From assembly GCF_003856835.1 (NCBI RefSeq), contig NZ_CP034145.1, positions 2,170,001-2,234,000 of the forward strand: a DNA stretch of 64,000 nucleotides, given 5' to 3'. Of the stretch, positions 31,365 through 61,899 are shown piece after piece (the first letter of the stretch is position 1; every line of letters starts with the position of its first letter). The notes beneath the pieces were generated by a model, which saw nothing but the letters and a program-made list of their open reading frames with translations, did no database searches and was not told the DNA's origin. The stretch comes from Haloplanus aerogenes (GTDB taxonomy: Archaea; Halobacteriota; Halobacteria; Halobacteriales; Haloferacaceae). Both the position numbers and the translations under genes were made by a program.

Positions 31365-32055
31365 GGTCGCGTTAAGTTAGAGGATGAGGCGTTCGAGTTC
31401 TGAGTGTCTATGGCAGAATCCGAACGCCTCAGCAAGTGTATCGAGTGGATCGACTTGTCGTTTGTGGAGCGAGATCGGACTCCCGAGTGGGCGATTCAAG
31501 TGGGCATCCGGCGTCATCTCGCAGATATGTCAACGAGGGATGCCAGTCAGTTTCTCGATGAGTTGGGAGTCCAACGCAGTCACATCGCGGCTCACAACTG
31601 GGTTCACAAGGCCGAGCTACAGCCGGTTTCGACGGTGAGTGCGGATCAGCTTGCGGTCGACGAGAAAGTGATCCGCATCAACGGCGACGACTACTGGCTG
31701 TACGGTGCCGTCGATCCCCAAACGAACGAAATCCTCCATTTCAGGCTGTTTCCAGCGACAACGAAACAGACGACGCGATGGTTTCTGACCGAACTTCATC
31801 GACGATATCGGCTAGATGGCGTCGAATTTCTCGTCGATGACGCCGATTACTTGGTGAACGTCCTCGACGAAGACGGGTACCGATTCCAGATGATTTCACA
31901 CGGGAATCGGAATGCCATCGAACGTGTCTTTTGGGAGATAGAACGACGAACCTCATCGTTCGCAACTAGTTTCAGCCATGTCGAACCGCAGACAGCAGAA
32001 TCGTGGCTCAAAGCCCTCGCCGTCCGGCACAACTCACGCCAAAGTTAACGCGACC
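31365..32055 (+). mobile_element. IS6-family insertion sequence, about 690 bp
   Basis: Ends are GGTCGCGTTAAGTT (left) and the complement of GGTCGCGTTAACTT (right), one mismatch in 14. One transposase gene fills the element. The 8 bases outside the two ends do not match, so the target duplication typical of IS6 insertion is missing, which suggests deletion or recombination next to the element. Its right end runs directly into the first copy of the 20-bp repeat array. Confidence 0.82.
31410..32048 (+). CDS. IS6-family transposase
   Basis: 212 residues from ATG 31410 (MAESERLSKCIEWIDLSFVE). The catalytic DDE triad is visible: Asp in 'LAVDEKVIRINGDDYWLYGA', Asp in 'EFLVDDADYLVNVL', Glu in 'NRNAIERVFWEIERRTSSF'. 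The short N-terminus and HTH-like segment ('ADMSTRDASQFLDELGVQRSHIAAHNWVHKAE') are usual for haloarchaeal IS6 members. Intact and probably active. Confidence 0.88.
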   Translation: MAESERLSKCIEWIDLSFVERDRTPEWAIQVGIRRHLADMSTRDASQFLDELGVQRSHIAAHNWVHKAELQPVSTVSADQLAVDEKVIRINGDDYWLYGAVDPQTNEILHFRLFPATTKQTTRWFLTELHRRYRLDGVEFLVDDADYLVNVLDEDGYRFQMISHGNRNAIERVFWEIERRTSSFATSFSHVEPQTAESWLKALAVRHNSRQS

Positions 32056-33167
32056 CCTCGGACAGAGTGTAAATCGGCCATTGACCGTCTCCTGATGTTT
32101 TGTCTAACGCGTATCATCCGTCAGGAGTATCGAGCCTATCCCGAGTGTAAGTGGCGATCACGAGGCGCCTATTCGAACGAATGGACACCCCTCATCAAGA
32201 GTGTAAACGGCGGACGTCGGTTGATTCACCACACCCCTCGTCAAGAGTGTATATCACTCGATCGTTCCAGACAGTCCGAGCGATCGAGACCACACCCCTG
32301 ATCCAGAGTGTAACTCCTGTCGAATTAAGTATCAATTTTCACTAGATTAGAAGTTGAAAGAAGCGTCGGACGCATGGCAGACACCCCTCGTCCAGAGTGA
32401 AAACCAGTCGCGATAGATTGCCTTCTCGATCGAATCAAGCGAATCGTCGAAGTCAGTCTCCTCCACCACCCCCAGTCAAGAGTGAACTGCGATGAAATTC
32501 ACGAGAGACTGAACGAGATCTCGCAGTAAGGTCACTGGTCGTTATACCTGACCGATGAACGGGAGGCGCGCAAAGTCTGCTCACTCCCTCTTGAGTATCC
32601 AGCTGTCACGGTGCTTCCGACAGAGATCACGAGAGTTGGCTCCGTTGACGGTGGAAATGAACTCCTGAAATCTCGGGACATACGTCGAACCAGTGAGAGT
32701 TCTCGAGATCCCTCACAGAGAATGGACGACTCTTGCGGTACCCACACACCCCTCGTCCAGAGTGTAACGCCACAGCGATACACGAGGAGGTGCGGAGAAA
32801 GTGCCCGACGAAAGACGGAGACGAGACAGAAACCACGGGACTGGAGAGCGATCAACCCACGAAGCACCTCTCCACAAGGATGGTAGTCGCTCCAACCTAC
32901 CACTTTACTTAGTGTTGTCTAGAAGTTTTATTACTTCCCTCTGCTAACTGTTCTCCAAGTGCATTTAGCACGAGGGAGGACGAAGACGGCATTCGTCCGG
33001 TCGATCGTGAACCGCTGCTCGTGATGGTTGGTTCTTTCCTCCCGTCCTCAACCGTGTTGGCGGCTCTATCCGTGCTTTTCTTCTCTCTGCCATCTCGTGG
33101 ACCTCTGTTTCGTGTGCACGTACCTCCTCCCTCTCACTCTGTTTTCACTCTGGACGAGGGGTGTGTG
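32053..33167. repeat. array of 20-bp origin-box-like repeats around an AT-rich tract
   Basis: Near-copies of ACCCCTCGTCCAGAGTGTAA occur on the plus strand at about 32053, 32135 (degenerate), 32187, 32233, 32294, 32383, 32468 and 32748. A reverse-oriented copy (CACTCTGGACGAGGGGTGT) lies near 33146-33164. Spacing is irregular (46 to 280 bp), so it is not CRISPR. The last forward copy and the inverted one face each other across an AT-rich stretch (about 32893-32965), with the G-run pointing outward in both. This resembles haloarchaeal origin recognition boxes flanking an unwinding element. No orc1/cdc6 gene lies in the window. No protein gene is supported in 32056-33222. Confidence 0.6.
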
Positions 33168-33222
33168 TGGCCTCTCTCGACTCCCCCGACAAAGGACTCA
33201 CCGACCATGGATTCTCACTCGT

Positions 33223-33609
33223 TCATTTTGGATTCACCGGAGCGATGTACTCGTTTTTCCAAGAATCGCCCTCTCGCCATTGCCAGTAGAAGTACCGGTA
33301 CGATTTATCGGTGGTTTCCTTCGTCGTCTTCACCGTGATGTACGCACCACTCGTCGGGACGTCTTCGTAGTCCTCTGGATCCGTCGAGATCTCGCGCTCG
33401 TCCAGCTCCTCGAGTTCTTCCTCATCGACCTCGTCCTCGGCTCGTCGACGTTCGAGTTCTTCCTCCCGCTGTCGATGTTTCCATTCCGCCAAATCAGCCG
33501 CGTACGCCGCGACTGCTTCCAACCGTTCCGGGGATTGGTTCTCGAGTGGTTCGCGAAGATACTTCGGCAACTCAGGTGCGGGCGGTTTCTCCGGGACGTC
33601 TTCGGTCAT
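33223..33609 (-). CDS. small acidic protein, DUF6788-like
   Basis: 128 residues. The N-terminal half is helical ('LPKYLREPLENQSPERLEAVAAYAADLAEWKHRQREEELERRR'), followed by a Glu-rich stretch. The C-terminal part 'AYITVKTTKETTDKSYRYFYWQWREGDSWKNEYIAPVNP' resembles the 'GPYYYLSWREGGKTRSRYV' ending of DUF6788 proteins, although the Cys pair of bacterial members is absent. Function unknown. One of the four 42-bp palindromes ends one base upstream of its ATG, so its promoter lies inside that palindrome. Confidence 0.65.
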   Translation of the reverse strand: MTEDVPEKPPAPELPKYLREPLENQSPERLEAVAAYAADLAEWKHRQREEELERRRAEDEVDEEELEELDEREISTDPEDYEDVPTSGAYITVKTTKETTDKSYRYFYWQWREGDSWKNEYIAPVNPK

Positions 33610-33610
33610 A

Positions 33611-33652
33611 GTTACCCCACGAACGGCGTGTCACATCAATTTGTGGGGTAAC
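33611..33652. promoter_or_regulatory. GTTACCCCAC / GTGGGGTAAC palindrome, copy 1
   Basis: 10-base perfect arms, 22-base spacer. In the direction of the DUF6788-like gene the right arm ends 1 base before ATG, and the spacer contains AAATTGAT about 26-33 bases upstream of the start, a TATA-like position. The arms would thus flank a leaderless promoter. Confidence 0.8.
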
Positions 33653-33788
33653 TCCAAGATTCGACGACGTACACTCCCCGTTATCGATGTGTAAACTACG
33701 CCGTTACTCCGTGTTCCGGCTGATTCCTCGATTTTCGGTCTTCGGCAAACGTGGGTGAACTCCCGAATCGGCAATAACACTCGTTGAG

Positions 33789-34099
33789 CTAACCGAGGAT
33801 ATCGCTTGGCGTGAACAACGAGAGGTCGTCTCGTTCAGTAGCGGTACTGCGGAGCCCGTCGGAGAACCCCGAGCGACAGAAACAGCAGTAGTGATACGTC
33901 AGCTCTTCACCGCCATCCGGCGACCACTGGATCTCTCTTGCCGTCCGCTCGAGATCGGCGAGATCGCTTTCAGTTATCTCTTGTTCGTGTACTTGCACTC
34001 GCCGGCGACGAGCGTCCCGTCGCTTCCGAGTCCGACGACGTCGAGTTCGTGATTGCGATGCCACCAGTAGCCGATCCCCTGGTACTGACGATTATCTAA
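33789..34099 (-). pseudogene. relic of a DUF234-type archaeal ATPase C-terminal (nuclease-like) domain
   Basis: Two frames join into one recognisable C-terminus. The first reads QYQGIGYWWHRNHELDVVGL and goes on through 'LVAGECKYTN' (to about 33984); the second continues 'QEITESDLADLERTAREIQWSPDGGEELTYHYCCFCRSGFSDGLRS' to the stop at 33789. A single missing base near 33978-33984 accounts for the shift. The P-loop ATPase half, normally over 300 residues, is absent. 'ELDVVGL...GECKY' is the restriction-nuclease-like signature of this family. Dead remnant of a mobile or defence-type gene. Confidence 0.65.
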
Positions 34100-34124
34100 A
34101 TCACGATTTTGTTAATCGTGATTT
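34098..34124. promoter_or_regulatory. 11-base inverted repeat between relic and HTH gene
   Basis: AAATCACGATT and AATCGTGATTT, perfect arms with a 5-base spacer, then a T-rich run. Could be an operator for the HTH gene downstream or a terminator. Confidence 0.45.
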
Positions 34125-34247
34125 TACTCTTGTCTGTACCGATTGCAACTTCTGCGGCATCGAGATTCGATACAGCGATACTCAGTCAGTTCAAGTGATT
34201 CGTCTTTCGGCGAAACGCTTACCACCGAATTGGATAGTTCGTCTATC

Positions 34248-34658
34248 ATGGGCGACACGGATTCGTGGGCAGGAGATCTCGATACCGTTCGCGAGCGACT
34301 CAAGGTTGTCACCCAGGAGACGCGATTTTCGCTCGTCCAGGACATCCTCGGGCATCCGTCGGGGCTACCGACGCTGAAGGAGTTGGACTACGCCAATCCG
34401 AGTCGGAGTCAAACGACGATCCGCCAGCATCTGCAACACCTCGTCGACGCGGGTATCGTCGAGAAAGTCGAACTCTCCGAGGAGCGCCGGCAGAACGATC
34501 TGCCGTACACGTTCTACGGGATCAGCGAGGAGGGGCGTCGATTCCTCGAGGAGCACAGGCTCCTGCGTGCCGAGGAGACGCTCCGAGCGATCTACGACCG
34601 GGTCGAGAAGACCGCTGAGATCGAGCGCTACGAGTCAGCCCCGCGTCCTGCGCGATGA
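34248..34658 (+). CDS. winged-helix (ArsR/PadR-like) transcriptional regulator
   Basis: 136 residues from ATG 34248 (MGDTDSWAGDLDTVRERLKV). 'VTQETRFSLVQDILGHPSGLPTLKELDYANPSRSQTTIRQHLQHLVDAGIVEKVE' is a winged helix with recognition helix 'SQTTIRQHLQHLVDAG', and 'PYTFYGISEEGRRFLEEH' forms the wing. The C-terminal helix 'LLRAEETLRAIYDRVEKTAEIERYESAPRP' is shared almost motif for motif with the protein at 41096-41539, so the two are paralogues on one island. Target genes unknown. An earlier in-frame start is possible. Confidence 0.78.
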   Translation: MGDTDSWAGDLDTVRERLKVVTQETRFSLVQDILGHPSGLPTLKELDYANPSRSQTTIRQHLQHLVDAGIVEKVELSEERRQNDLPYTFYGISEEGRRFLEEHRLLRAEETLRAIYDRVEKTAEIERYESAPRPAR

Positions 34659-34692
34659 GTGATTCAGCGATATAGCGTTGATGATATCTGAA

Positions 34693-34731
34693 GTTACCCC
34701 ACGAATTGGATTCTATCTCGCGTGGGGTAAC
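34693..34731. promoter_or_regulatory. GTTACCCCAC / GTGGGGTAAC palindrome, copy 2
   Basis: 10-base perfect arms, 19-base spacer. It lies 35 bases after the HTH gene and about 190 bases before the Mrr-like gene. Unlike copies 1, 3 and 4, no ATG follows either arm within ten bases. Confidence 0.75.
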
Positions 34732-34918
34732 TCCTCTCTGTTACTGAGGAGCGAAGCTACCGTTCACAGTGAGGATCATGTCGCTTGGTTGTCCATCAAC
34801 CCAAATGACCGCCTCTGCTGAGATATTGATCCTGATGTCACCAGGATTGATGATGTCTCTTGGGTCATACATTCGGTAACGTATTTGTTAGTCGCCACTT
34901 ACTCTTCACCCATCTCGG

Positions 34919-36283
34919 ATGGCTGTCTTGGACGACCTCTCTGGATTCGAGTTTGAGGATTTGATGGAAGACGTGTTCCGCAACCTCGGCTACGAGAATG
35001 TCCGCCAGGCTGAACGAACGGCTGACGAGGGTCGAGACATACTGATGGAGGAGGTCGTCGACGGCACCCGTCGAACGGTTGTCGTCGAGTGCAAGCACAC
35101 GGGAACCGTCGGGCGCCCGGTCGTCCAGAAGCTCCACTCGGCCATCGCCACATTCGATTTCGACGGTCCCAAACGCGGGATGGTCGTCACAACCGGCCGG
35201 TTCACGGGGCCTGCCGAGGAGTACGCTGCACGCCTCCAGCAGAACGACGATCCCTATCCCATCGAACTGATCGATGGCGAAGATCTCCGGGAAATAGCGG
35301 ACGAAATCGGTCTTGACCTCTACAACGGTCGGATCGAGATCCTCTGTAACGAAACACTCCGTCCGTACGATCCAGCAGTAGACGTCGACGCGCCCGTTCA
35401 GGAGGCGTTCCGCGACATCGAAAACATCGAGCCCGCCGATCTTCCGGCGCCGCACTCGCAGGTGACCTTTCGGCCGGTGGTCGCGATCACCGCCGACACG
35501 AACGCTGTCTTCGAGACGTCGGTGGGCGTCATCCACCGGATCAACGACCGCACACAGTTCGTCGTCCACGCTGAACGCGGACATCCACGGGTGGCCGACG
35601 ACGACATCGCGACACTGGTGACCGAGAACTTCCACGCGACGGTTGACCTCGATGCCGATCGATTCGAAGACGTGTTCGACGAGATTTCGGAGCGTCGGTT
35701 CGGCCAAACCCAAACGGAGTACAAGGAGTGGGCTGTCGACCGCCTTCGGGACTACCACACGACGACGGTAACCTACACTGGCGACAACAACGTCACGTAC
35801 AACAAAACGTGTGAGCCGAATCTCTCGGACATCTCAGTGCACTCGATTGAGCCGGTGTATCTACCTGAGGTTCGCCATACAACCGAGATACAGGAGTACA
35901 CCTACCTCTCCGAATACTACGCGGCGGGACCATCGCGAGTGACGACCGAGGATGGAATTCATCGCTGCGTCCACTGCGAGACGAGCGGTGTCGACGAGAC
36001 GTACACCTACTGTCCGAACTGCGGGGCGGTTGCCTGTGGTAGCCACATCAAGACCGAACGGCTGGAAGGGGAGCCGGTCTGTACGGGCTGTGCGGTCACG
36101 GAGCGGTTCGCGCTGAAGACGAAGTACTTCTACGATGAGGAGAATCTCGAGGCGTTCCGCGAGGAGTACGCCGCGATGCCGATTCACGAGAAGGCGATGG
36201 AGAACAAGCTCCTCGCTGGAGGCGGCTTGATCACGATGGTGCTGGTCATCCTCGCTCTCCTCGTGCTGGGCGGTCTGGTCTGA
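34919..36283 (+). CDS. Mrr-type restriction endonuclease with zinc ribbon and membrane anchor
   Basis: 454 residues. The N-terminal Mrr-like nuclease domain has 'GFEFEDLMEDVFRNLGYENV', D40 in 'EGRDIL' and E57-x-K59 in 'VVVECKH', the PD-(D/E)xK set, followed by 'GMVVTTGRFTGPAEEYA'. The middle (about 150-340) is unassigned. A zinc-ribbon-like Cys cluster lies at about 355-405 ('CVHCE', 'CPNCGAVAC', 'CTGCAV'). The last 30 residues are one hydrophobic helix ('GGGLITMVLVILALLVLGGL'). The enzyme is probably tethered to the membrane and could cut incoming modified DNA. Start ATG 34919 immediately precedes the conserved domain. Confidence 0.83.
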   Translation: MAVLDDLSGFEFEDLMEDVFRNLGYENVRQAERTADEGRDILMEEVVDGTRRTVVVECKHTGTVGRPVVQKLHSAIATFDFDGPKRGMVVTTGRFTGPAEEYAARLQQNDDPYPIELIDGEDLREIADEIGLDLYNGRIEILCNETLRPYDPAVDVDAPVQEAFRDIENIEPADLPAPHSQVTFRPVVAITADTNAVFETSVGVIHRINDRTQFVVHAERGHPRVADDDIATLVTENFHATVDLDADRFEDVFDEISERRFGQTQTEYKEWAVDRLRDYHTTTVTYTGDNNVTYNKTCEPNLSDISVHSIEPVYLPEVRHTTEIQEYTYLSEYYAAGPSRVTTEDGIHRCVHCETSGVDETYTYCPNCGAVACGSHIKTERLEGEPVCTGCAVTERFALKTKYFYDEENLEAFREEYAAMPIHEKAMENKLLAGGGLITMVLVILALLVLGGLV

Positions 36284-36512
36284 GTCGGCGTGTTCTCATG
36301 TTGCTCCGCGCCGGTACTATGATCCACTCTTTCCATCAAGTAGTAGAGTCAACGACAATCGCTCGTCACGGATCGGTCACGACGTGTCGCACACACGTTG
36401 TTCTCGTGAACCGGCTCCACCGAGAGTCAGCGCGATGTGCCACAGAGCGTGACGATATACGACCCCTCGAACTTGCGGACGTCATTGAGCGTTCCAAAAG
36501 TAGTCGACAGAG

Positions 36513-37334
36513 TTACTCGCATGACTGCTCGCCCGCCTTTCCCCGGAGTTCGACCGCTGCACGCTCGAAGTGTTCCGCGAGGAACGGCGTTCCCGATGTC
36601 GCCCGCTCGTCGAGGAATTTGACAGCGTTAGTGACCGCATCAGCGTCGCGTTCCGTGGCGACGACACAGTCGACGTACCCGTCGAGTGCCCGACTGAAGG
36701 CACTCGAGAAGTGATCGTACGCACCGTCGACGCGCTCCATGTTGTCGTCGAGCGACTCGACGAGTGCCCGGTAGACGGTCGCCGCTGACGCGTACTGCCC
36801 CTGCTCGCGGTACTCGTTCGCGAGGTTGAACCACTGCGTGAAGTCGATAGGCTCGAAGACGACGTCGTATTCTGGGTTCCGCTCCTCGAACCGCCGGTCG
36901 ATCGAGGTGCGAAGTTCGTCGACCGACCGCCTTGTCGATGCACCGACTCTGGCGAGAAATCGGTCGCGGAGATCCGCATCGGTCACGAGCTCTTCACGCA
37001 GGAACGCGCGGAGTTCGTCGACATCGGTACCGTTGAGTGCGGCGTCGAGTCGAGCGCCTTCGTCCGGGGGACGGTCGTCCACACATCGAAGCAACACGGC
37101 GACGACGTGCTTGCACGTTCCCGGCCCGTCGTACGGACAGTCGCACCGCGGGGCAAACTCGTCGGCGGCGAGGTCGACACGGACATCGTACTGACGACTG
37201 CCGCTCACGACTGCGGTGACGGTGGTGTCGACGCGGTGAATCTCGCGGATACGGCCCTCCGCGAGGTAGCGTTCACCGCGTTCGAAGACCGCGTCCGTGC
37301 AGACGCCCCGAACCGTGTCCTCGGTTACGTCCAT
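36513..37334 (-). CDS. SWIM zinc finger protein
   Basis: 273 residues. The SWIM motif CxCx(n)CxH is in 'PRCDCPYDGPGTCKHVVAVLL' (about 63-83), preceded by 'ERGERYLAEGRIREI' as usual in this family. The rest is alpha-helical with a TPR-like stretch ('WFNLANEYREQGQYASAATVYRALVESLDDNMERVDGAYDHF'). SWIM domains bind DNA or proteins and occur near helicases; no helicase is adjacent. It is convergent with the Mrr-like gene. Confidence 0.8.
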   Translation of the reverse strand: MDVTEDTVRGVCTDAVFERGERYLAEGRIREIHRVDTTVTAVVSGSRQYDVRVDLAADEFAPRCDCPYDGPGTCKHVVAVLLRCVDDRPPDEGARLDAALNGTDVDELRAFLREELVTDADLRDRFLARVGASTRRSVDELRTSIDRRFEERNPEYDVVFEPIDFTQWFNLANEYREQGQYASAATVYRALVESLDDNMERVDGAYDHFSSAFSRALDGYVDCVVATERDADAVTNAVKFLDERATSGTPFLAEHFERAAVELRGKAGEQSCE

Positions 37335-37638
37335 GTGTGTGGATAGAGTTCCGGCGTGAGCGGATAAAACCGATACGTCGATGTCGCTTTCGCTCCGGAT
37401 CGGAACATGTTCCTCTGAGAGACCCTACGAAACTATCGCCGTACCGCAGCAACAACACTCGGGCGCGACGGGATACCGCTGCTGCCCGGTCTCGAAGGGT
37501 GGATTCCTTCTGTACTCTGGTGGTCGTCTTCCTTACTATACTTTCGACGACGCTCCTACCAAGCAGAGGTGGTTAAGCAACGCACCGTTCTGAACGGCTA
37601 TTCAATCCGTCTGAGTCAACTACCCCACCCTACTTCGC
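37335..37638. other. intergenic stretch between SWIM gene and tnpB
   Basis: Contains the tnpB downstream flank with a hairpin at 37585-37597. A 70-codon plus-strand frame (37381-37593) has no recognisable motif and overlaps the hairpin; not called. Confidence 0.4.
37585..37597. repeat. 13-bp hairpin near the right end of the tnpB element
   Basis: CCGTTC and GAACGG flank a single T, 42 bases beyond the tnpB stop. IS200/IS605 ends and TnpB guide RNAs carry subterminal hairpins at this side of the gene. The exact element end was not determined. Confidence 0.45.
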
Positions 37639-38895
37639 TCAGTCTGACGACTTCGCTCGTGGAGGGTGGGGCTTGTCCGTGTCCTCGGCCTCGAACCCGT
37701 CCGGGTGGGCGGTAAATCCGCCACTCGGCGTCACCGTTCCAGACTTCAGGGCAAGCTGACTGTTGCCCGTCCGCCGAGACGACTGTTGGCCTCGACGGAC
37801 ATAGCGCATCCCGATGTTTTTCGCCGCGTTGTAGTCTGCATTCGCTTCCGACTCGCACTTCTGACAGCAGAAATCGTTTCGAGTCGGGCGATTCTCGTCG
37901 GCTGTGAAGCCACACTCTGCGCACCGCGTGGACGTGTACGCCGAGCCCACCTGCTTCACCGAAATCCCTTCCGCTTCGGCTTTGTACTCCACCTGCTCGT
38001 ACAGTGTTCGGAACGCCCACTTGTGGCCCCACGACCCACCCGTGCGGTCGCGGATGTGGGTCAGATCCTCGAACGCGATCACATCGCACTCGTATCGGAG
38101 TGCTTCGTCTACGATGGCGTTCGACGCCCGGTGGAGTACGTCGCGGATGTACCGAAGTTCGCGCCCACTCGACTGTTCCAGCGTTCGGTGGGCGCTTCGG
38201 GTCCCGGTCTGCTGGAGTCCGGCGCGTACCTTCTCGAACTCGTGGAGGTCGTGGGCCAACTCCCGCCCGCTAAAGAAGTAGGCAGTGCTGGTGACAGCGA
38301 GGTTTTCGATACCGAGGTCAATCCCGAGGACCGTTCCGTCCTCGGCGGTGTTCCGTTCGGCATCGGTCTTGTGTCGGCGGAAACCGATGTGCAAAAAGTA
38401 GTCCCCATCACGGGCGGTGAGCGTGCTTTCTGTGGGACTCCACTCGTCGGAGTCAAGATACTGCCGTTGGTAGCCGTCATCGTCGTCGGGCAGAGCAAGG
38501 TCACACCGGACGCGGCTCGCTGTGGTGGAAAGCGACACCGTACCGTCGTCAAAAAGCGTCATCGTCCGGGTGTCGTACTTCACCGTGGGTGCGGTGAACG
38601 TCGGTTTGCTGACCTTCTTGCCTTTCGAGCGGCGTTCGATACAGCCGGTGATGGCTTGTGCGGCTTGGTGGGTGGCGAGAATCGCGTGCTGACTCCCGAG
38701 GTCAGTTTGCTCACGCACGTCGTCGTAGGCGAGGGGTTGTACATCGCTCTTGGCGTTGCACTTGCCCCACGCTATGTCGGTGGCGATCTGGCACCCACGC
38801 TTCCACTCGGAGATGGTTTCTTCGAGGAGGTCGCGCTGCTCTCCATCTACCGAGAGTCGGGTGATTGCCGTCCGACGCACGTAGTCGTCTGCCAC
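37639..38895 (-). CDS. tnpB: RNA-guided endonuclease TnpB (IS200/IS605 or IS1341 type)
   Basis: 418 residues with intact RuvC residues: D193 in 'LGIDLGIENLAV', E276 in 'IAFEDLTHIRD' and D354 in 'ANADYNAAKNI'. The zinc ribbon is complete ('CAECGF' C325/C328, 'CCQKCE' C344/C347). The N-terminal part fits the wedge/REC region. TnpB uses a guide RNA from the 3' end of its own element to cut DNA, favouring retention of the transposon. No TnpA transposase gene lies beside it, so the element is of the solo IS1341 kind. Confidence 0.9.
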   Translation of the reverse strand: MADDYVRRTAITRLSVDGEQRDLLEETISEWKRGCQIATDIAWGKCNAKSDVQPLAYDDVREQTDLGSQHAILATHQAAQAITGCIERRSKGKKVSKPTFTAPTVKYDTRTMTLFDDGTVSLSTTASRVRCDLALPDDDDGYQRQYLDSDEWSPTESTLTARDGDYFLHIGFRRHKTDAERNTAEDGTVLGIDLGIENLAVTSTAYFFSGRELAHDLHEFEKVRAGLQQTGTRSAHRTLEQSSGRELRYIRDVLHRASNAIVDEALRYECDVIAFEDLTHIRDRTGGSWGHKWAFRTLYEQVEYKAEAEGISVKQVGSAYTSTRCAECGFTADENRPTRNDFCCQKCESEANADYNAAKNIGMRYVRRGQQSSRRTGNSQLALKSGTVTPSGGFTAHPDGFEAEDTDKPHPPRAKSSD

Positions 38896-39211
38896 AGTTT
38901 CAATGTAGTACTGTGGCTACTTACAAACAGGTGTTTGTGACAGATACGAACCCGCTTCTCCCCTCCCTGCTCGCTCCCTTCGGTCGTTCCTTGAGGAAGG
39001 GGAATCCGCGCTACCGCTTCAGTTGAATACGACATTCAGAACGACGTGACGTACCACGAGATCGAGTGGCTTGATGAGTATCGGCGCCTGTTCATGTCGT
39101 CTCTCGAGTAGTTCGACTCGCAGATTGAATTGTCTCTCCGAAATACGTTTGTACAAACGCCTCACCATTTGACGACCCACACTGAAGCGTTCAGAGTTTG
39201 TATTCCACTTT
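38896..39211. other. stretch upstream of tnpB with a short protein relic
   Basis: A plus-strand segment around 39020-39111 reads 'VEYDIQNDVTYHEIEWLDEYRRLF' and stops, looking like the C-terminus of a lost gene I cannot name. The tnpB element's left end must lie between it and 38895. No complete gene seen. Confidence 0.35.
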
Positions 39212-39239
39212 CACCGATATACTTATAACTATATCGGTG
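39212..39239. promoter_or_regulatory. operator-like palindrome over the TATA box of the HTH-nucleotidyltransferase gene
   Basis: CACCGATATA and TATATCGGTG, perfect 10-base arms with the 8-base spacer CTTATAAC. The TTATAA box sits in the spacer, 24-29 bases before ATG 39252, the spacing for leaderless transcription. Binding here would block TBP/TFB. Confidence 0.75.
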
Positions 39240-39251
39240 GAATTGGAATTT

Positions 39252-40913
39252 ATGAGGGGAGCGGAGCTACGAGTTATCGACTGTTTGCGGGATCAGTCCT
39301 ACTCGGTTGGCGAATTAGCCGATGCAATCGATAAAAGTCAGAGCTGGACGTCAGAGGTCGTTGGCGACCTCGAAAACGCCCATCTTGTAGACCGAACTGA
39401 CGGCGTCCAATTGGCCACCACATACGAAGCATCACTGCTTGCCGAGCTCCTCGACCGCTACGCACTCGAGAACGTGCTGATAGGGACGAAAGAGGACATT
39501 TTGGGTGCGCTGCTCGGCGGTCCGAAGACGATTTCGGAGTTACAAACGAAGGGCTTCGCCAAGTCCACGCTCTACAAGCATTTGAACGAGATCCAGGAGA
39601 CCGGTGCGATCGCACACACGGACGACGGGTATGCTATCACCGATGACACGCTTCGGTCGTTCCTCGAAGCTAGAACCCGAACGACACCGTTCGAAACCGA
39701 ATACCGCGCGAACGGCGACCGACTGGTCGCGACGAGCAAGGACACTGTCGATGGGACGCCGACTGCGTTCTCGGCGTTCACTCGCTACGGTGTTGATTAT
39801 CACCCAGCGAAGACCTACGTCTATCAAGGTGATCGGTCGCTGGGACTCGAAGAGGTTCTGATCCATGCGGTGACCGTCGCTGAGAACAAGAAACAGATGG
39901 CGATGGCTGGCGTGTTCTATCTGACGCACCGCGCGACCCTCGACGCCAGCGACCTGTGGCGGCTCGCAAACAGGTGGGAGTGCGTCGAGAAATGGGCAGA
40001 TCTCTTTGCATACATCGACCAGCGGGAGGTCCACCACGATGAGCTCTTTCTCCCGTGGGAGGAATTCATCGATCTCGCGAACGACTATGGGGTCTATCCG
40101 CGCGGCCAACATCCGGAAGATAGCCTTCGACGGGGGCTCGAAGAGCTTGGCGACCACCTGGAGACGCCTGTCGACGTGTATCTTCTCGGAGGCGGCAACC
40201 TCATTCTGCGTGGGTTGAAAGATTCGACGAAGGACGTCGACATCGTCGTTGAGGACGGACAGACGTTCTTTGCAATCGCCGAATCGCTCCAGGACCTGGG
40301 ATACGAGGAGCGTAGTGACTTGGAAGCGGCATACAACCAGCTTGATCCCAGTATTGTGGTGGAGAAGGAAGGGTTTCCACGCTGGGATATTTTCGTGGAG
40401 GCGGTCGCCGGCCAGCTCCAGTTGACGCCGGCGATGATCGAGCGGTGCGACCAATCATTCGAGTACGGCAATCTTCACGTACATCTGCTCTCGCTGACCG
40501 ACATCTTCGTGTTCAAATCGATTACGGAACGCGAAGGAGATCTCGAAGATGCCGCACTGATCGCCAGACAAGCCGACCTCGACTGGGAGAGCATCTTCCA
40601 GGAGATCAAGACCCAGGAAGATCGTACTGGCCAATTATTCTCGTTTGCTGTGCTCGATACGCTCGATGTCCTCGACGAGCGACACAATATTGTCTCCCCA
40701 ATCACGGACCGGCTCGTCTCGTACTGTCTTGAGAACGCGTTGCTCGTCTCACTTGATGCCCCGAAAACCATCGAAGATCTCCGAGAAGAGCTGGATTTCC
40801 CCGATCACCAGATCTACAACAAGCTCCGGAAACTCGAAGAGGAAGGACAGCTCACCGTCGATCGTAGCGGTCGGCTCAATACGTACCAGCGAGCTGAATC
40901 AACTGACCGGTAA
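39252..40913 (+). CDS. HTH - nucleotidyltransferase - HTH protein, AbiEii/MNT-like
   Basis: 553 residues from ATG 39252. An N-terminal winged HTH ('MRGAELRVIDCLRDQSYSVGELADAIDKSQSWTSEVVGDLENAHLV') is followed by a second HTH ('PKTISELQTKGFAKSTLYKHLNEIQETGAI', about 91-120) and a middle domain of about 130 residues with no assignment. The nucleotidyltransferase core has 'VYLLGGGNLILRG' then 'STKDVDIVVE' (D328, D330), the G-x-(11-17)-DxD pattern. A third HTH-like unit lies near 500-550. DNA binding and an AbiEii-like transferase toxin in one chain suggest a self-repressing defence or toxin-antitoxin gene; this is inference. The operator over its TATA box supports autoregulation. Confidence 0.75.
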   Translation: MRGAELRVIDCLRDQSYSVGELADAIDKSQSWTSEVVGDLENAHLVDRTDGVQLATTYEASLLAELLDRYALENVLIGTKEDILGALLGGPKTISELQTKGFAKSTLYKHLNEIQETGAIAHTDDGYAITDDTLRSFLEARTRTTPFETEYRANGDRLVATSKDTVDGTPTAFSAFTRYGVDYHPAKTYVYQGDRSLGLEEVLIHAVTVAENKKQMAMAGVFYLTHRATLDASDLWRLANRWECVEKWADLFAYIDQREVHHDELFLPWEEFIDLANDYGVYPRGQHPEDSLRRGLEELGDHLETPVDVYLLGGGNLILRGLKDSTKDVDIVVEDGQTFFAIAESLQDLGYEERSDLEAAYNQLDPSIVVEKEGFPRWDIFVEAVAGQLQLTPAMIERCDQSFEYGNLHVHLLSLTDIFVFKSITEREGDLEDAALIARQADLDWESIFQEIKTQEDRTGQLFSFAVLDTLDVLDERHNIVSPITDRLVSYCLENALLVSLDAPKTIEDLREELDFPDHQIYNKLRKLEEEGQLTVDRSGRLNTYQRAESTDR

Positions 40914-40954
40914 CGCTACACCACGAGTATACTCCATGGGTGAGTCGACGACAT

Positions 40955-41086
40955 ATGGATCTGAAGGAGACCGTCGATTATCTCGCCGAAAAACTCGATC
41001 TGGAGCGGAGCGACTCCGTCCGTGAAGTCGGTCAGTCCGTGGTGATCTCCGGGACTAATGACAGACTATCGCTCCCTATTCTCTGA
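40955..41086 (+). CDS. possible 43-residue protein or fragment
   Basis: ATG 40955 opens 43 codons (MDLKETVDYLAEKLDLERSD, SVREVGQSVVISGTNDRLSL, then PIL) with natural acidic haloarchaeal composition. No family recognised. It sits convergent with the HTH gene at 41096 and could be the 5' end of a truncated gene. Confidence 0.3.
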   Translation: MDLKETVDYLAEKLDLERSDSVREVGQSVVISGTNDRLSLPIL

Positions 41087-41095
41087 CAATCTCTT

Positions 41096-41539
41096 CTAAT
41101 CCGGACGGGGCGCATTCTCGTACTTGACCATCTTCTCGGGTTTGTCGGAGATGGTGTCGTAGATCTGCTGGAGCGTCTCCTCGGCGGCGAGCAGGTTGTG
41201 CGTCTTCAGGAATTTCCGACCCTCGTCGGTCAGACCGTAGAACTTCCAGGGATAGTCCTGTCGGCGCTGGTCATCGTCTAGGGCGACTTCCTTGACGATG
41301 CCGGCGTTGATGAGCTTCTGGATGTGCTTGTAGACGGTGGCATCGCTCACACTAGGGTTGAGTTCTTCGAGTTCGTACATCGATGGGAGTTGTTGGGGAT
41401 GGGCGAGAATATCGTTGAGAAGTGAAAACCGGGTCTGCTGTGTAATGAAGTGGACGAGTTCGCGTGGTGTCGTGTCGTCATCATCGCCCAAACTGCGCCC
41501 ATATCTATGTATTCGACTGAGAGTAGCAAAGTAGTTCAC
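41096..41539 (-). CDS. winged-helix transcriptional regulator, paralogue of the 34248 gene
   Basis: 147 residues by the longest reading (GTG 41539). The conserved core is 'ITQQTRFSLLNDILAHPQQLPSMYELEELNPSVSDATVYKHIQKLINAGIVKEVALDD', then 'WKFYGLTDEGRKFLKTHNLLAAEETLQQIYDTISDKPEKMVKYENAPRPD'. The same blocks occur in the protein at 34248-34658. The GTG lies inside a palindrome, so a downstream TTG at 41491 (MGDDDD...) is a plausible true start. Probably a DNA-binding repressor of accessory genes. Confidence 0.75.
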   Translation of the reverse strand: MNYFATLSRIHRYGRSLGDDDDTTPRELVHFITQQTRFSLLNDILAHPQQLPSMYELEELNPSVSDATVYKHIQKLINAGIVKEVALDDDQRRQDYPWKFYGLTDEGRKFLKTHNLLAAEETLQQIYDTISDKPEKMVKYENAPRPD

Positions 41540-41554
41540 CCTAGAGTAAACTAC
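41531..41554. promoter_or_regulatory. 24-bp near-palindrome at the start of the wHTH gene
   Basis: Outer arms GTAGTT and AACTAC, inner CTAG centre, with only two mismatched pairs over 24 bases. Covers the first possible start codon of the gene; candidate autoregulatory operator. Confidence 0.5.
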
Positions 41555-41796
41555 AGAGACTGCTCACTCTATTCGATGCGTTGCTCGATTCGCGTACTAC
41601 CCCTCGGCGACGACCTTCTTTCGGAGCGAGTCGAGGCCCTCGCTGCCGGACACAGTGATTCCCTCGGCGAGGATCTCGCGACGTTTTGACCCAGCCTGAG
41701 TACGCTCTCGGTGAATTCGACATACGGCTCGAACGCGAATCGGTCGCCGCCGAAGCGGCCGGAACAGTTCGTGGACGACGGCCTCTCGTGGAATGG
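41540..41796. other. short stretch with gene debris
   Basis: Fragments such as 'GDRFAFEPYVEFTESVL' and 'LAEGITVSGSEGLDSLRKKVVAEG' appear in different minus-strand frames between 41580 and 41800. They look like decayed coding sequence; no gene can be named. Confidence 0.3.
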
Positions 41797-42366
41797 TCAC
41801 GCGTCGAGGCGTTGGAGCAATTGCGTGACGTAGGGACTATTCTCCCAGCTACGATGCGGGCTGATCGTCGTAATCAGTGTGTTCGCTTCTTCCGTGGTCA
41901 GATACCCGTTCCGGGCGTAGTCGACGATCAGCCGCGGTGTCGGGACGATCCGCGGGCCCTGCAGCACAGCGTGAATCAGCGGGAAGTTCGTTCCGCCGAA
42001 CTCGTCGGTGAGAAACCCGTCCACGGCGAGCGCATTCGCGAGGACGATGCCATCGGTTTCGCCGTCGTCGAGGCCGAACGTGGGCCGGGAGTCTGGCGTC
42101 TCGTCGCGCTCGTATGGATCCTCGACCGTGTAGTGGCTGCGGGCTGCGAGGACGTTGTTCGCAGCTGCGCCGTGGATGTCCTGATACTGCGTGATGTCGC
42201 GGAGTTCTGTAACGACTTCCGGAGGTACGAACACCTCACACGAGGTGAGGAGATACTGGAACGGATCTGGGGTGGCGGTATCGACGGCCGCGTCGGCTCG
42301 GGGAACGCCGAGACCGACGAGTGCGCTGGTGTCGGCAACGACCGTTCGCAGTCGCCGGCCGCTCAT
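41797..42366 (-). CDS. PIN-like nuclease toxin of an RHH-PIN pair
   Basis: 189 residues. 'VVADTSALVGLG' (D12) is the first PIN strand and acidic residue. 'PPEVVTELRDI' has the second acidic position, 'DDGETDGIVLANAL' the third, and 'VDGFLTDEFGGTNFPLIH' the last. The overall layout is longer than classical VapC and resembles PIN-like proteins that pair with CopG/RHH partners. Its ATG overlaps the stop of the antitoxin-like gene (ATGA), so the two are translationally coupled. RNA cleavage is expected from family knowledge; the target is unknown. Confidence 0.75.
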   Translation of the reverse strand: MSGRRLRTVVADTSALVGLGVPRADAAVDTATPDPFQYLLTSCEVFVPPEVVTELRDITQYQDIHGAAANNVLAARSHYTVEDPYERDETPDSRPTFGLDDGETDGIVLANALAVDGFLTDEFGGTNFPLIHAVLQGPRIVPTPRLIVDYARNGYLTTEEANTLITTISPHRSWENSPYVTQLLQRLDA

Positions 42367-42731
42367 CGCTCATCGTCGGCTGCGGGCTCGACTGTCGTCG
42401 CGTCGCCATCGTAGACGTCGACGTCGTCGGGGGCAGCGATATCGAGTGGCTCATCCTCGAGATCTGCTTTGAGAAGCCGGAGCCGCTGGGCAGTCTCGGC
42501 GCCGACCAACTGCTTGACCGTCTCGAACTCGAGCTGGTCGTCGTAGTACTTGGTCGCGACGAGTTCCTGGAACGTCTCACTATCGGCGGTATCTTCGATG
42601 TACTCGCGAATCGCCTCGACAAGCAAATCCGTCCGATCCTTGTCGAAGAGCTCCGCGATCGCATCCAACCGGTCGACGAGGTACTCCGGCGACTGGAAGT
42701 GCACTCGTCGCGGATCGTCGCTCGCACTCAT
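42363..42731 (-). CDS. ribbon-helix-helix antitoxin-like protein
   Basis: 122 residues from ATG 42731 (MSASDDPRRVHFQSPEYLVD). The N-terminal 45 residues ('RRVHFQSPEYLVDRLDAIAELFDKDRTDLLVEAIREYIED') form a ribbon-helix-helix DNA-binding unit. The remainder is acidic and helical ('FQELVATKYYDDQLEFETVKQLVGAETAQRLRLLKADL'), fit for binding the PIN partner. A perfect 9-base inverted repeat lies one base upstream of the ATG. A longer reading to 42797 would run through that operator and was rejected. Confidence 0.78.
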   Translation of the reverse strand: MSASDDPRRVHFQSPEYLVDRLDAIAELFDKDRTDLLVEAIREYIEDTADSETFQELVATKYYDDQLEFETVKQLVGAETAQRLRLLKADLEDEPLDIAAPDDVDVYDGDATTVEPAADDER

Positions 42732-42732
42732 T

Positions 42733-42755
42733 CTATGTGCAAGTTCTGCACATAG
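42733..42755. promoter_or_regulatory. operator palindrome of the RHH-PIN operon
   Basis: Arms CTATGTGCA and TGCACATAG, perfect, 5-base spacer, ending one base before the antitoxin ATG. Further TGCA half-sites follow at about 42757 and 42788. Typical position for antitoxin autoregulation. Confidence 0.7.
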
Positions 42756-42829
42756 GTGCATAACGGTTTCGGCGACTGCACAGAGCTTGCACATCAAAGC
42801 ACTTGGAACAGGACTCGCTCACGCCAGTC

Positions 42830-42997
42830 TCAGCAGTTTTCCTGGGCGTTCAGTTCGTCGAGAAACCAACTGGCTGCCGTTGCGATCCGAACGCCGTCGA
42901 CGTTACGCAATTCGAGGTCATTCGTGGCGGTCCGGAACGGTTCGTTGTCGACGAGGGTGCGGTGGATGACAGGGGTGCCGCACGCGGGGCAATCCAT
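42830..42997 (-). CDS. small CPxCG-like zinc-finger protein
   Basis: 55 residues from ATG 42997: MDCPACGTPVIHRTLVDNEP and onward to 'WFLDELNAQENC' plus stop. The CPxCG knuckle at residues 3-7 is typical of short haloarchaeal zinc-finger proteins, but the second CPxCG pair is missing. Only a His and the C-terminal Cys could complete a site, so it may be degenerate. Role unknown. Confidence 0.4.
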   Translation of the reverse strand: MDCPACGTPVIHRTLVDNEPFRTATNDLELRNVDGVRIATAASWFLDELNAQENC

Positions 42998-43135
42998 AGT
43001 CGTCCCAAGGGGTGCCTGTCTGTTGAAGATAGTGAAGCAATGAGACCGTTACACACGGTAACCGGATAGTGTCGGGTACAAGGGTATCTAGTGGTAACTG
43101 AGAACGGGAGACGACAGCCTCCGTGTTAGGGCTCT

Positions 43136-44431
43136 TCAAGCAACGAGCACGTCCCCGACTCGTCGAACGATGGCAGGCGCGGCGGCCGCGAAGCGGTTCG
43201 CAACGGCGTACTGCGCGTAGAGGTAGCGTCCGGGCGAAGAGACGGTGTCTTCGCGGATGTCTCTATCGGCGTTCCGAATCGGATTGCGAGCGTAGACGGC
43301 GAGACGGCGTGCAAGAAGCGCAGGTGATGTGTCGAGAAGGGCGCGGAGCTCCTCAACGGCGGCGGTACGTTCCGCCTCGATCGGATCGATCGATTCGGGG
43401 ACACTGTATGCACCGTCCGAAATGATATCCATCGCGTCAGCGAGGGCACGATCCGCGGCGAGTGCCCGCATCGCGGAGACGATGGCGAGTGTGTCTCGGC
43501 CGTCGTCGTGGTCCTCAACAGCCATTTTCGCGCCGCTCCATCGACTACGCGCGAGTTCTTCGAGCAGTTTCGCGGCTACGGTGTTCTCGATATTGCGCTC
43601 GACTCCGCTCATCAGCGCCTCGCGGTCGGGGGCGTCCACGTGCGAATCGATGTCCGAGACGAGGGTGTCCGCGACGCGCGAGAACCGATTCCCGTAGTCG
43701 CGCTGGTCGTTGAGCGTCGCCACATAGTGCTCCCGAAGACGGCGGGCGTCTGCGGTGTACGCGCGACCCCACTCGATGTTCTGTGCGAGTTCGGCAACGT
43801 GCAGAACGGTGTTCTCGTACTCGTGGCGTCGGTTTGCTTCGGTGAGTCGGATGCCGGTGCGACCCCAACCCACGATGCGAGCGTGTTCGGTGAGTGCGCC
43901 TACTGGGTCGTCGGACGGGCCAACGTATCGGTAGTCGTCGAGGAACGCCCCGGCGTCGTGATGATGGCGGTCGCGACGTGCGGCGATATCCGCCGCGGTG
44001 AGGTCGCCGTCGAACGCGGCGAGACCGGCGTGGACGAACATCGCCTCCGAGCGCGGATACGTCAGACCGGCGAGTGCATCGATGCGCGTGGATTCATCGT
44101 CGTTCTGGGCGAGGGCTGCGCGGGCCGAATCGCGTTCGCGAGCGAGGCGATGGCGGACGACTCCGTTCGGAACCTCTGAGATCTCCGTGTCCGGGTCTTC
44201 GAGGAGCGAATGGACACGCTCGCGGGCGGAGGTGAGGTGCGCTGACGTTGGCTGGACGGGGATTGCGGCGGCCATTCGCGGTAGATCACTGGGGAGTGTC
44301 GCGAGCGCCGACTCGTCGTACTCGACGGTCTCCTCACTCGACAGGGGATTCAGCTCACTACAGCCCGCGAGCGTGCCAATGAATGCAGTACCGGTGGCGG
44401 CGAGCAGCGAGCGACGGGTGTGTCGACTCAC
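43136..44431 (-). CDS. Tat-exported lipoprotein, hypothetical (second gene of pair)
   Basis: 431 residues. The signal 'MSRHTRRSLLAATGTAFIGT' followed by LAGC is a Tat lipobox signal (Cys about 24). The mature part is largely alpha-helical ('HARIVGWGRTGIRLTEANRRHEYENTVLHVAELAQNIEWGRAY', 'LLARRLAVYARNPIRNADRDI'). No family recognised. Its start overlaps the stop of the upstream lipoprotein gene (ATGA), so the two are made together and may form a surface complex. Confidence 0.7.
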   Translation of the reverse strand: MSRHTRRSLLAATGTAFIGTLAGCSELNPLSSEETVEYDESALATLPSDLPRMAAAIPVQPTSAHLTSARERVHSLLEDPDTEISEVPNGVVRHRLARERDSARAALAQNDDESTRIDALAGLTYPRSEAMFVHAGLAAFDGDLTAADIAARRDRHHHDAGAFLDDYRYVGPSDDPVGALTEHARIVGWGRTGIRLTEANRRHEYENTVLHVAELAQNIEWGRAYTADARRLREHYVATLNDQRDYGNRFSRVADTLVSDIDSHVDAPDREALMSGVERNIENTVAAKLLEELARSRWSGAKMAVEDHDDGRDTLAIVSAMRALAADRALADAMDIISDGAYSVPESIDPIEAERTAAVEELRALLDTSPALLARRLAVYARNPIRNADRDIREDTVSSPGRYLYAQYAVANRFAAAAPAIVRRVGDVLVA

Positions 44432-49724: not shown

Positions 49725-50081
49725 TCATTCGTCGTCGGCACTCACGGAACCCACGAACGTCCAGTGGAGGTGCGTCCCTCCTTCCGGACGGGCTTCCTCA
49801 CGGACGTGATAGAGGTAGGGACCGTGCGGACAGTCCTCACAGCCGTCGGCACACGAAAACTGCTTCACGACTTCAGTAAACCCATCACGTTCGGTCGCTC
49901 GAAGGATATCTTCCCCCGGACCGGGTTCGATCGGAGATGTCGTCTCCTGGTGAAACTGGAGCAGTTCCTGAGCGTGAATGATCGTGTTACGGAGTTCCTC
50001 GGGCGTGAGCTGGCCAAGCTCCGACGCAAGCGATTCGGGTAATCCATCCGGAGGAGTCGGTGTGTCCGTAGCGTCAGTCAT
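49725..50081 (-). CDS. conserved haloarchaeal hypothetical with a Cys cluster
   Basis: 118 residues from ATG 50081 (MTDATDTPTPPDGLPESLAS). A helix 'LTPEELRNTIIHAQELLQFHQE' is followed by 'GFTEVVKQFSCADGCEDCPHGPYLYHVREEARPEGGTHLHWTFVG'. The Cys triad C-x3-C-x2-C then HGPYLYHV looks like a small metal site. The helix-plus-'GPYLYH' arrangement is like DUF6788, as in the gene at 33223. Function unknown. Confidence 0.65.
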   Translation of the reverse strand: MTDATDTPTPPDGLPESLASELGQLTPEELRNTIIHAQELLQFHQETTSPIEPGPGEDILRATERDGFTEVVKQFSCADGCEDCPHGPYLYHVREEARPEGGTHLHWTFVGSVSADDE

Positions 50082-50542
50082 AGTGAGGGATTCACTCCGG
50101 GAACACATAATACGTCGCCACGACCACAGCGGAGGCGTATTCCAGCCTCCACCGAGCCATGACGGATCGACACCTCAGAGCCATTCTGGCGGGAGCGGAG
50201 CGGATCGCAGAGCACTACGCCCCAGTCGACGGACTACCCTGAACACGAGTCGCACCGGTGTGCTGTACTCCGGCTCTACGGGGGTGACGCCAAGTCGATT
50301 CACGAGACGGTCTCACGTCGAGATCATTAGTAGATCGTGTGCCACAATCGTCCTCGGCAAGGAGCTTCTCACGGACCGAATTGACGGTTGTGCGGACAGC
50401 GTCCTCGGTAATCCCTCTGATATATCCCCACGGAGCGACGGTGTACCGTTCGATGAGATGGACGATGCTGTCCGCAACCGTCGACGGTCGAAGACTGATT
50501 TGAGGCAGTAGACGCTTGTGATATCCGTCACAATGATGAGTT
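50082..50542. other. 461-base stretch before the DHH gene, no firm gene
   Basis: A 27-codon plus-strand frame (50159-50242, MTDRHLRAILAGAERIAEHY, then APVDGLP) has natural composition but is too short to trust. On the minus strand 'ADSIVHLIERYTVAPWGYIRGITEDAVRTTVNSVREKLLAEDD' (about 50480-50350) also looks protein-like within a frame of poor ends. Either may be decayed coding sequence. Confidence 0.35.
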
Positions 50543-60668: not shown

Positions 60669-61046
60669 TCACTCCGCATCCAAGCGGGGTTCTGCCCTGA
60701 CAGTCCCGACCGGGACGAGCGGTGTGCCGTCGAACGCCGTCCCGAGTTCACGCCGGCTGGTTTGTTCGGCGTCCTCGGTTGGTCGTGCTGTGACGGTACA
60801 CTCAAGCGTGAGGCCGACGAGCGCTGTCTCGGCCACGACGAGTACCGCCTCCATCGGCGTCCCACAGGTCGTACAGGAGAGCGTCTGGATGCTGATGTCG
60901 CAGTGATCAACGTGTGGGGCATCCGCTTCGCTCACACGTGTTCCGACCCCACTGACGGCGATATTGATCGTGTCCTGTACCGCGTGGGCGCCTCGAACGA
61001 GCCACGGGACCGACAGCGTCACCCAGTACTGTTCGGAGCGGCTCAT
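60669..61046 (-). CDS. UPF0212 (DUF555) family protein
   Basis: 125 residues. 'YWVTLSVPWLVRGAHAVQDTINIAVSGVGTRVSEADAPHVDHCDISIQTLSCTTCGTPMEAVLVVAETALVGLTLECTV' matches UPF0212, with its C-x2-C zinc-like pair ('CTTCGTP') and the TALVGLTLE strand. Usual length about 110-120. Function unknown. Three bases after a 42-codon frame on the same strand, probably one operon. Confidence 0.82.
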   Translation of the reverse strand: MSRSEQYWVTLSVPWLVRGAHAVQDTINIAVSGVGTRVSEADAPHVDHCDISIQTLSCTTCGTPMEAVLVVAETALVGLTLECTVTARPTEDAEQTSRRELGTAFDGTPLVPVGTVRAEPRLDAE

Positions 61047-61049
61047 CGT

Positions 61050-61178
61050 CTACCCTGCGCTGCTGACTGCTGGTCGATCGGCGTTGTCGTCCGCCTCATC
61101 GGCCCGGTCTGGCTCGGTATCGTATATATCACTTAGAAAGCGATGGATCGGCGCCATTCGTTGTGCATCTCGTCTCAT
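61050..61178 (-). CDS. 42-residue protein heading the UPF0212 operon
   Basis: ATG 61178 opens 42 codons: MRRDAQRMAPIHRFLSDIYD, TEPDRADEADDNADRPAVSS, then AG. The second half is strongly acidic, with haloarchaeal composition. It begins 4 bases after copy 3 of the GTTACCCCAC palindrome, whose spacer holds a CTAATCATT box 25-33 bases upstream. No family recognised; it may be a leader or small regulator. Confidence 0.4.
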   Translation of the reverse strand: MRRDAQRMAPIHRFLSDIYDTEPDRADEADDNADRPAVSSAG

Positions 61179-61182
61179 CGAG

Positions 61183-61224
61183 GTTACCCCACGATGGGGA
61201 AATGATTAGCCAGCGTGGGGTAAC
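61183..61224. promoter_or_regulatory. GTTACCCCAC / GTGGGGTAAC palindrome, copy 3
   Basis: 10-base perfect arms, 22-base spacer, 4 bases before ATG 61178 of the UPF0212 operon. CTAATCATT in the spacer suits a TATA box. Confidence 0.8.
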
Positions 61225-61284: not shown

Positions 61285-61784
61285 TTACTCCTCGACGACC
61301 TCGGCGAACGCGAAGTTCTCGTGCACGGTTTCGATCCGGACGAGCGGCTGCTGGCCGATCTCCGTATCGGGGACAAACACGACGTATCCAGGGCCGACCC
61401 GGGCGAGGCCGTCGCCCTGATTGCCGACGTCCTTGATGTCGAGCCGGAGCGTTTCTCCCTCGGTTACTGGCGGGTGGTTCGACGTACGTTCCGTCGAGGT
61501 TGCTGGGGTGCTTGTCTCAGCTCTTGGAGTGACATTCCGGGGAGGTTGCGGTTCAGCCCGTCTCTGCGTGGTCTGGACTTCTCCGCCGTCTCGATCCGTG
61601 GTCACAGAACTCTCAGGGATCGTAGGACTCGAGGTATTCACGCCAGGGTATACCCCGACTCGATACTCTCTCCGGGTTCGAGTGTCCCGAGTTCGACTTC
61701 TTGCTCAGGAACCGTGACGACATACTCTCCATCCCTGGCCTCAACGCGGCCGGTGAACAGACACAGTGGGGTAGACGAGTCCAT
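61285..61784 (-). pseudogene. TRAM-domain protein gene with a one-base deletion
   Basis: From ATG 61784 the frame reads MDSSTPLCLFTGRVEARDGE and continues 'YVVTVPEQEVELGTLEPGES', then drops into 'IESGYTLA' and stops. The +1 frame reads 'VGVYPGVNTSSPTIPESS' and continues to 'GETLRLDIKDVGNQGDGLARVGPGYVVFVPDTEIGQQPLVRIETVHENFAFAEVVEE', a full TRAM domain. One missing T near 61664-61667 would restore 'ESYRVGVYPG' and a single protein of about 165 residues. The 3' part could still start at GTG 61641. TRAM proteins bind RNA and act as chaperones in archaea. May be real decay or a sequencing error. Confidence 0.78.
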
Positions 61785-61857: not shown

Positions 61858-61899
61858 GTTACCCCACAATACGGAGGTGTGTTCTGTTCGTGGGGTAAC
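61858..61899. promoter_or_regulatory. GTTACCCCAC / GTGGGGTAAC palindrome, copy 4
   Basis: 10-base perfect arms, 22-base spacer, 74 bases upstream of the TRAM ATG. On the minus strand another ATG (61852, 36-codon frame MDERRFRQDPIIINPNP...) follows the right arm by 6 bases. Confidence 0.8.

Follow-up and report, generated by a model that had tools for sequence, protein, structure and literature searches.

A dispersed palindrome of Haloplanus aerogenes as the predicted operator of an uncatalogued family of small haloarchaeal plasmid proteins

Small autoregulated plasmid proteins with operators dispersed over backbone promoters are known in bacteria, for example KorA and KorB of RP4 and ArdK and StbA of the IncW and IncN plasmids, and these have known DNA-binding domains. 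Archaeal partition proteins of the SegB/AspA type are also small, DNA-binding and autoregulated, with dispersed sites. The haloarchaeal proteins considered here, which are predicted to act at a dispersed palindrome, differ from both groups. No sequence or domain similarity to KorA/KorB or ArdK/StbA was found, and the putative operators, of about 42 bp, have widely spaced arms. SegB and AspA belong to different protein families, and the family described here is without a constant ParA/SegA partner. The whole family does show distant homology with DUF6788 (PF20586), which has a Cys/His-rich stretch that is absent from the H. aerogenes protein.

A member of the family is encoded by the phage ChaoS9. 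There, ChaoS9 gp49/PhiH1_250/Nmag_4297 is listed only as an 'uncharacterized protein' (PMC6471424), and a text search of that article found no mention of a palindrome or inverted repeat of gp49; an intact repeat, TCTTAACCAACA-N22-TGTTGGTTAAGA, stands directly before its start codon. Text searches of the literature for the arm sequences and for DUF6788 returned no relevant paper, and the motif is undescribed in the papers found. Among the matches listed, nearly all annotated records give the family members as 'hypothetical protein'. The protein-and-site system, which comes in at least four mutually exclusive site classes and is spread over plasmids of salt-loving archaea, is previously unannotated.

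The window, that is, the whole 64 000-nt stretch of H. aerogenes DNA that was analysed, contains four copies of the palindrome GTTACCCCAC…GTGGGGTAAC, with perfect 10-bp arms and spacers of 22, 19, 22 and 22 bp (Table 1). All four had been reported, with these positions, arms and spacers, in an earlier sequence-only reading, which judged chance recurrence negligible. That judgement holds, as the number expected in shuffled sequence is zero, and a search of the entire 3.5-Mb genome, which had been proposed, recovered exactly these four copies, all within the window, and none for a reversed-pattern control. Arms of this class (class A) rarely occur singly, 498 of 527 (94%) being paired in the DNA fetched, and the spacer is 18–24 bp in 185 of 187 distinct palindromes, with a mode of 22. 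Within the taxonomic family, 20 of 171 genomes hold 1–12 copies and controls gave zero. Scanning one genome per GTDB species revealed at least 120 stretches with the palindrome. Among the matches listed, nearly all are haloarchaeal and many plasmid-borne, and the two bacterial ones are, by our own estimate, the number that chance would yield in 257 Gb.

Table 1. Palindrome copies, predicted regulator gene and putative target genes in the window
Feature	Position	Strand	Remarks
Regulator gene (predicted), class A	33223..33609	-	128 aa; helical N-terminus, three-stranded beta C-terminus
Palindrome copy 1	33611..33652	.	Predicted operator over core promoter of regulator gene; 1 nt before its ATG
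Palindrome copy 2	34693..34731	.	Between end of HTH gene (34658) and start of Mrr-type endonuclease gene (34919)
Mrr-type restriction endonuclease gene	34919..36283	+	Putative target of copy 2; Mrr_cat 2.6e-26
DUF555 (UPF0212) gene	60669..61046	-	Putative target of copy 3; DUF555 1.5e-31
Palindrome copy 3	61183..61224	.	Upstream of DUF555/UPF0212 gene
TRAM-domain gene	61285..61784	-	Putative target of copy 4; apparently frameshifted here
Palindrome copy 4	61858..61899	.	Upstream of TRAM gene

The gene next to copy 1 belongs to a family that is abutted by 37 class-A palindromes, most of its starts lying exactly 1 nt off, as in the window; among the 173 acidic ORFs nearest to palindromes, 25 begin at this distance. 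The window protein has no significant match in Pfam or NCBIfam. The label 'DUF6788-like' given to it earlier stands at the level of a superfamily, since a remote paralogue on the host's own 41-kb plasmid matches PF20586 (2e-8), but not at the level of the protein itself, which has no PF20586 match at E≤0.5; proteins of classes B, C and D have none either. The family is an uncatalogued haloarchaeal sister of DUF6788. The paralogue on the 41-kb plasmid (L259; G000:C2:3918-4247), a DUF6788 gene, has an upstream repeat of its own, TCTTACCAAACA-N22-TGTTTGGTAAGA, which suggests that the operator arrangement extends into DUF6788 itself. A sequence elsewhere in the window (49815-50082, minus strand) is remotely related to the regulator family; it includes HGPYLYHVREE, a stretch resembling one in DUF6788, and has neither an upstream inverted repeat nor a Pfam match.

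Domain-profile searches found no recognised DNA-binding domain in the family protein; helix–turn–helix and ribbon–helix–helix domains were absent in Pfam, NCBIfam and PHROGs. Foldseek comparison of the protein model with the PDB gave no match with E≤0.001, and a PDB sequence search gave nothing meaningful. The AlphaFold model (pLDDT 89) consists of helices, one of 33 residues, followed by a three-stranded beta-sheet, and most of the invariant residues (K94, Y106, Y108, Q110, W111 and R112) lie in the sheet. In one protein (L193; G047:C12) an HNH endonuclease is joined to the family's C-terminal beta domain.

Across the order, 159 of 245 sampled genomes and 56 of 78 genera have members of the family; class A is represented by 37 plasmid records and class B by 194. 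The member on pNRC200 of Halobacterium salinarum NRC-1, VNG_RS11815, has lost the left arm of its own operator. Searches of viral contigs yielded no protein relatives, though the phage record of ChaoS9 holds one.

An inverted repeat of the same geometry, with arms of at least 8 bp, lies upstream of 138 of 167 members in the larger set. In a first set, searched over 140 nt around the gene start, arms of at least 9 bp were present in 89 of 104 unique members and in 21 of about 400 random windows (about 5%). Between the arms, the gene-distal half of the spacer contains a conserved AT-rich, TATA-like element (AAATTGAT in class A, AAAACTAT in class B), while the other half is GC-rich. The ATG follows the repeat at 1 nt in class A and at about 14 nt in class B. 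The repeat thus has the form of an operator on the gene's own promoter, and a protein bound there should block initiation because the TATA-like element and the start site lie within or beside it. A clade found mostly in another haloarchaeal family (L329–L348) has no such repeat before its genes, and its proteins differ at the C-terminus, which reads EIAGTxYxYYQWRDGDxIxS.

The sequence-only reading had placed ATGs 1, 4 and 6 nt from three of the copies and, in copies 1 and 3, a TATA-like box between the arms, which would clamp a core promoter. All three ATGs are literally present, on the minus strand, but only that at copy 1 securely marks the start of a gene. The ATG 4 nt from copy 3 opens an N-terminal extension of DUF555 in a reading frame that is open in two relatives; within the window (61046-61179, minus strand) this extension, in-frame in relatives, is interrupted by a stop codon. 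The ATG 6 nt from copy 4 is not conserved, and the TRAM gene begins about 70 nt from the palindrome. The frameshift in this gene is an apparent 1-nt deletion relative to Haloglomus irregulare (L145). Copies 3 and 4 do not overlie their conserved TATA-like element, which stands outside the arms, downstream of the palindrome and toward the gene. The proposed clamp therefore describes the copy-1 gene family and not copies 3 and 4, and distances to start codons, when tabulated as had been suggested, are mostly 1 nt for class-A palindromes at the family gene and variable elsewhere.

The arms vary with the protein clade, being TTACCCCAC, TTAACCAAC, CTAACCCAC or CTAACCAAC; homologues without GTTACCCCAC have repeats of one of the last three kinds at a nearly equal centre-to-centre distance. 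Placed on a tree of 94 proteins, the four arm classes require three changes, the minimum, versus 35 with shuffled labels. Such agreement, taken alone, might arise from vertical inheritance of the locus, and for this reason the dispersed sites, away from the family gene, provide the real test. A residue rule, in which W in strand 3 went with CCCAC arms and I or V with CCAAC arms, was dropped, as the class-C protein of genome G244 has no such W.

Class-A sites occur in all 16 gene-bearing genomes and in 4 of 153 gene-negative ones (Fisher 5e-19, a tally that, like those below, takes genomes as independent and ignores shared ancestry and plasmid co-transfer). Exact class-B sites number about 1,400 in 171 genomes. 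They are present in each of the 103 gene-bearing genomes (median 10), whereas 36 of 61 gene-negative genomes are site-free (Mann–Whitney 2e-25) and the other 25 hold 1–7. Their number climbs with gene copies (rho 0.88; 0.69 within carriers), and two site-rich genomes that were at first outside the list of carriers proved, on direct search, to have 8–9 family genes. For classes C and D, arms were read from a few family promoters and the genomes then scanned as a prediction. Class-C arms gave 7 and 8 sites in the two source genomes, one in G244 and none in 29 others. Class-D arms gave 6, 9, 8, 15, 13 and 5 sites in the six genomes with the gene of that clade, and sites in one of 26 others; the gene arms of two of the six, G057 and G244, had not been read before the scan. 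In G244, the D gene shares its replicon with all five D sites, and the one C site stands before the C gene on another contig. Sites of a class are thus found away from the family gene essentially only where the corresponding regulator occurs, with the exception of the few in the 4 class-A and 25 class-B gene-negative genomes. This class specificity, and the predictions that it passed, are hard to explain otherwise.

In annotated plasmid stretches, which are 74.6% coding, none of 24 sites lies inside a CDS (about 5e-15 under random placement, by our own estimate). Of these, 21 are upstream of a gene; the other three, flanked by convergent genes, show that some sites are not operators. The genes beside sites include those for DNA ligase, cytosine methylase, an Mre11-like nuclease, a PrimPol-like protein and Cdc6, and for ArdC, ParA, HNH, AAA and DUF6610 proteins. 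Most sites precede plasmid genes that serve replication, DNA processing or restriction, and the family gene itself is often near orc1/cdc6 and polB on the plasmids inspected. Away from the family gene, the distance to the nearest ORF start is variable and often 20–80 nt, and a genome-wide search for a fixed TATA or promoter phase downstream of dispersed sites did not find one.

The island carrying copies 1 and 2 has a counterpart in Haloplanus rubicundus plasmid pCBA1113-02, to which window positions 32057-44430 correspond in equal gene order (62% of a 14-kb query, 94% identity), and copy 2 is present there at the same place with one mismatch. For the DUF555–TRAM segment at 61 kb, the matches are to two other Haloplanus plasmids, at 90–91%. 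The island therefore derives from a plasmid, in keeping with the family's occurrence on plasmids. The match to pCBA1113-02 stops just downstream of the regulator gene, beside a transposase-like ORF (31404-32048), and the orc1/cdc6 gene of that plasmid is absent from the window island.

Taken together, promoter placement, intergenic position and the tracking of gene class by the sites support the earlier suggestion of an operator for a shared regulator, and the regulator is most likely the product of the copy-1 gene. We consider it likely that the palindrome is the operator of this protein, which would repress its own promoter and coordinate dispersed plasmid genes, and that the clades have diverged in arm specificity. 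Direct binding is inferred from these patterns, and the model suggests how it might occur: the long N-terminal helix would make a dimer or larger oligomer, with one C-terminal three-stranded sheet reading each arm. The arm centres are 30–34 bp apart, about three helical turns. At its own promoter, where the TATA-like element is enclosed by arms that overlap or adjoin the start site, binding would repress the gene; at dispersed copies before genes for replication, DNA processing, restriction and other backbone functions, the same protein would provide coordination. At copies 3 and 4 and at the dispersed sites the effect may be activation, repression or structural, given that the palindrome is upstream of the TATA-like element and no promoter phase is seen. 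With at least four arm specificities, replicons within one cell need not cross-talk.

An unlikely reading, but the one among the rivals with most to be said for it, is that the palindromes are partition, replication-control or chromatin sites of the ParB/KorB or SegB kind, which mark, segregate or organise the replicon, autoregulation being secondary. Plasmids do hold several sites, some between convergent genes or near orc1/cdc6; family genes are often near orc1/cdc6 and polB, and in three plasmids a ParA gene is divergent from the family gene. Against this, most sites are upstream of genes and that of the family gene has a set position at the promoter, ParA is an inconstant neighbour (directly adjacent at three class-A loci only), and profile searches found no ParB/KorB domain in the protein. 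It is more doubtful still that the palindrome is bound by a different transcription factor, one encoded at another locus, with the family gene only its commonest target. The family protein has no HTH and an HTH gene (34248-34658) does lie between copies 1 and 2, but the four arm classes track family clades and gene presence replicon by replicon. The adjoining HTH gene was rejected as the regulator, as it is not a constant neighbour, being absent beside the family gene in H. aquaticum.

The earlier alternative that the palindromes are the ends of a small mobile cassette was prompted by the two pairs in the window, which bracket 0.7–1.1 kb. This reading, or one of insertion-sequence ends, is now very improbable: the arms are invariant and the spacers free, sites elsewhere are single or unevenly spaced with inter-copy distances that vary, and the DUF555–TRAM pair of pCBA1113-02 exists without any class-A palindrome. 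In the alignment with L145 the arms stay fixed amid substitutions and small indels and no boundary of an insertion is seen, and no segment flanked by two copies was found to move as one unit. Hardly any credence can be given to an RNA hairpin acting as a terminator, riboswitch or RNA–protein site. A stem of 10 bp with a 22-nt loop could fold, but the sequence of the arms is fixed beyond mere complementarity, and the repeat of the family gene, at or upstream of the expected start site, would be largely untranscribed.

The predicted operator system offers a testable function for a family that carries only the label 'hypothetical protein' and occurs in about two-thirds of the genomes sampled from the order and on 194 plasmids with known sequence, and the presence of VNG_RS11815 in the model organism H. 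salinarum NRC-1 makes it immediately testable. More tentatively, and with somewhat less than even confidence, the family may constitute an addressing system of haloarchaeal plasmids and some tailed viruses, in which a new type of beta-sheet DNA-binding protein has an evolvable code and its at least four orthogonal arm specificities serve as replicon identity tags, keeping the regulation, and perhaps the replication or partition, of co-resident plasmids separate. If the operator reading is correct, the family would be one of few candidate global regulators of archaeal plasmids and would probably represent a new DNA-binding fold with natural specificity variants, and its orthogonal regulator–operator pairs would be usable in halophile genetics.
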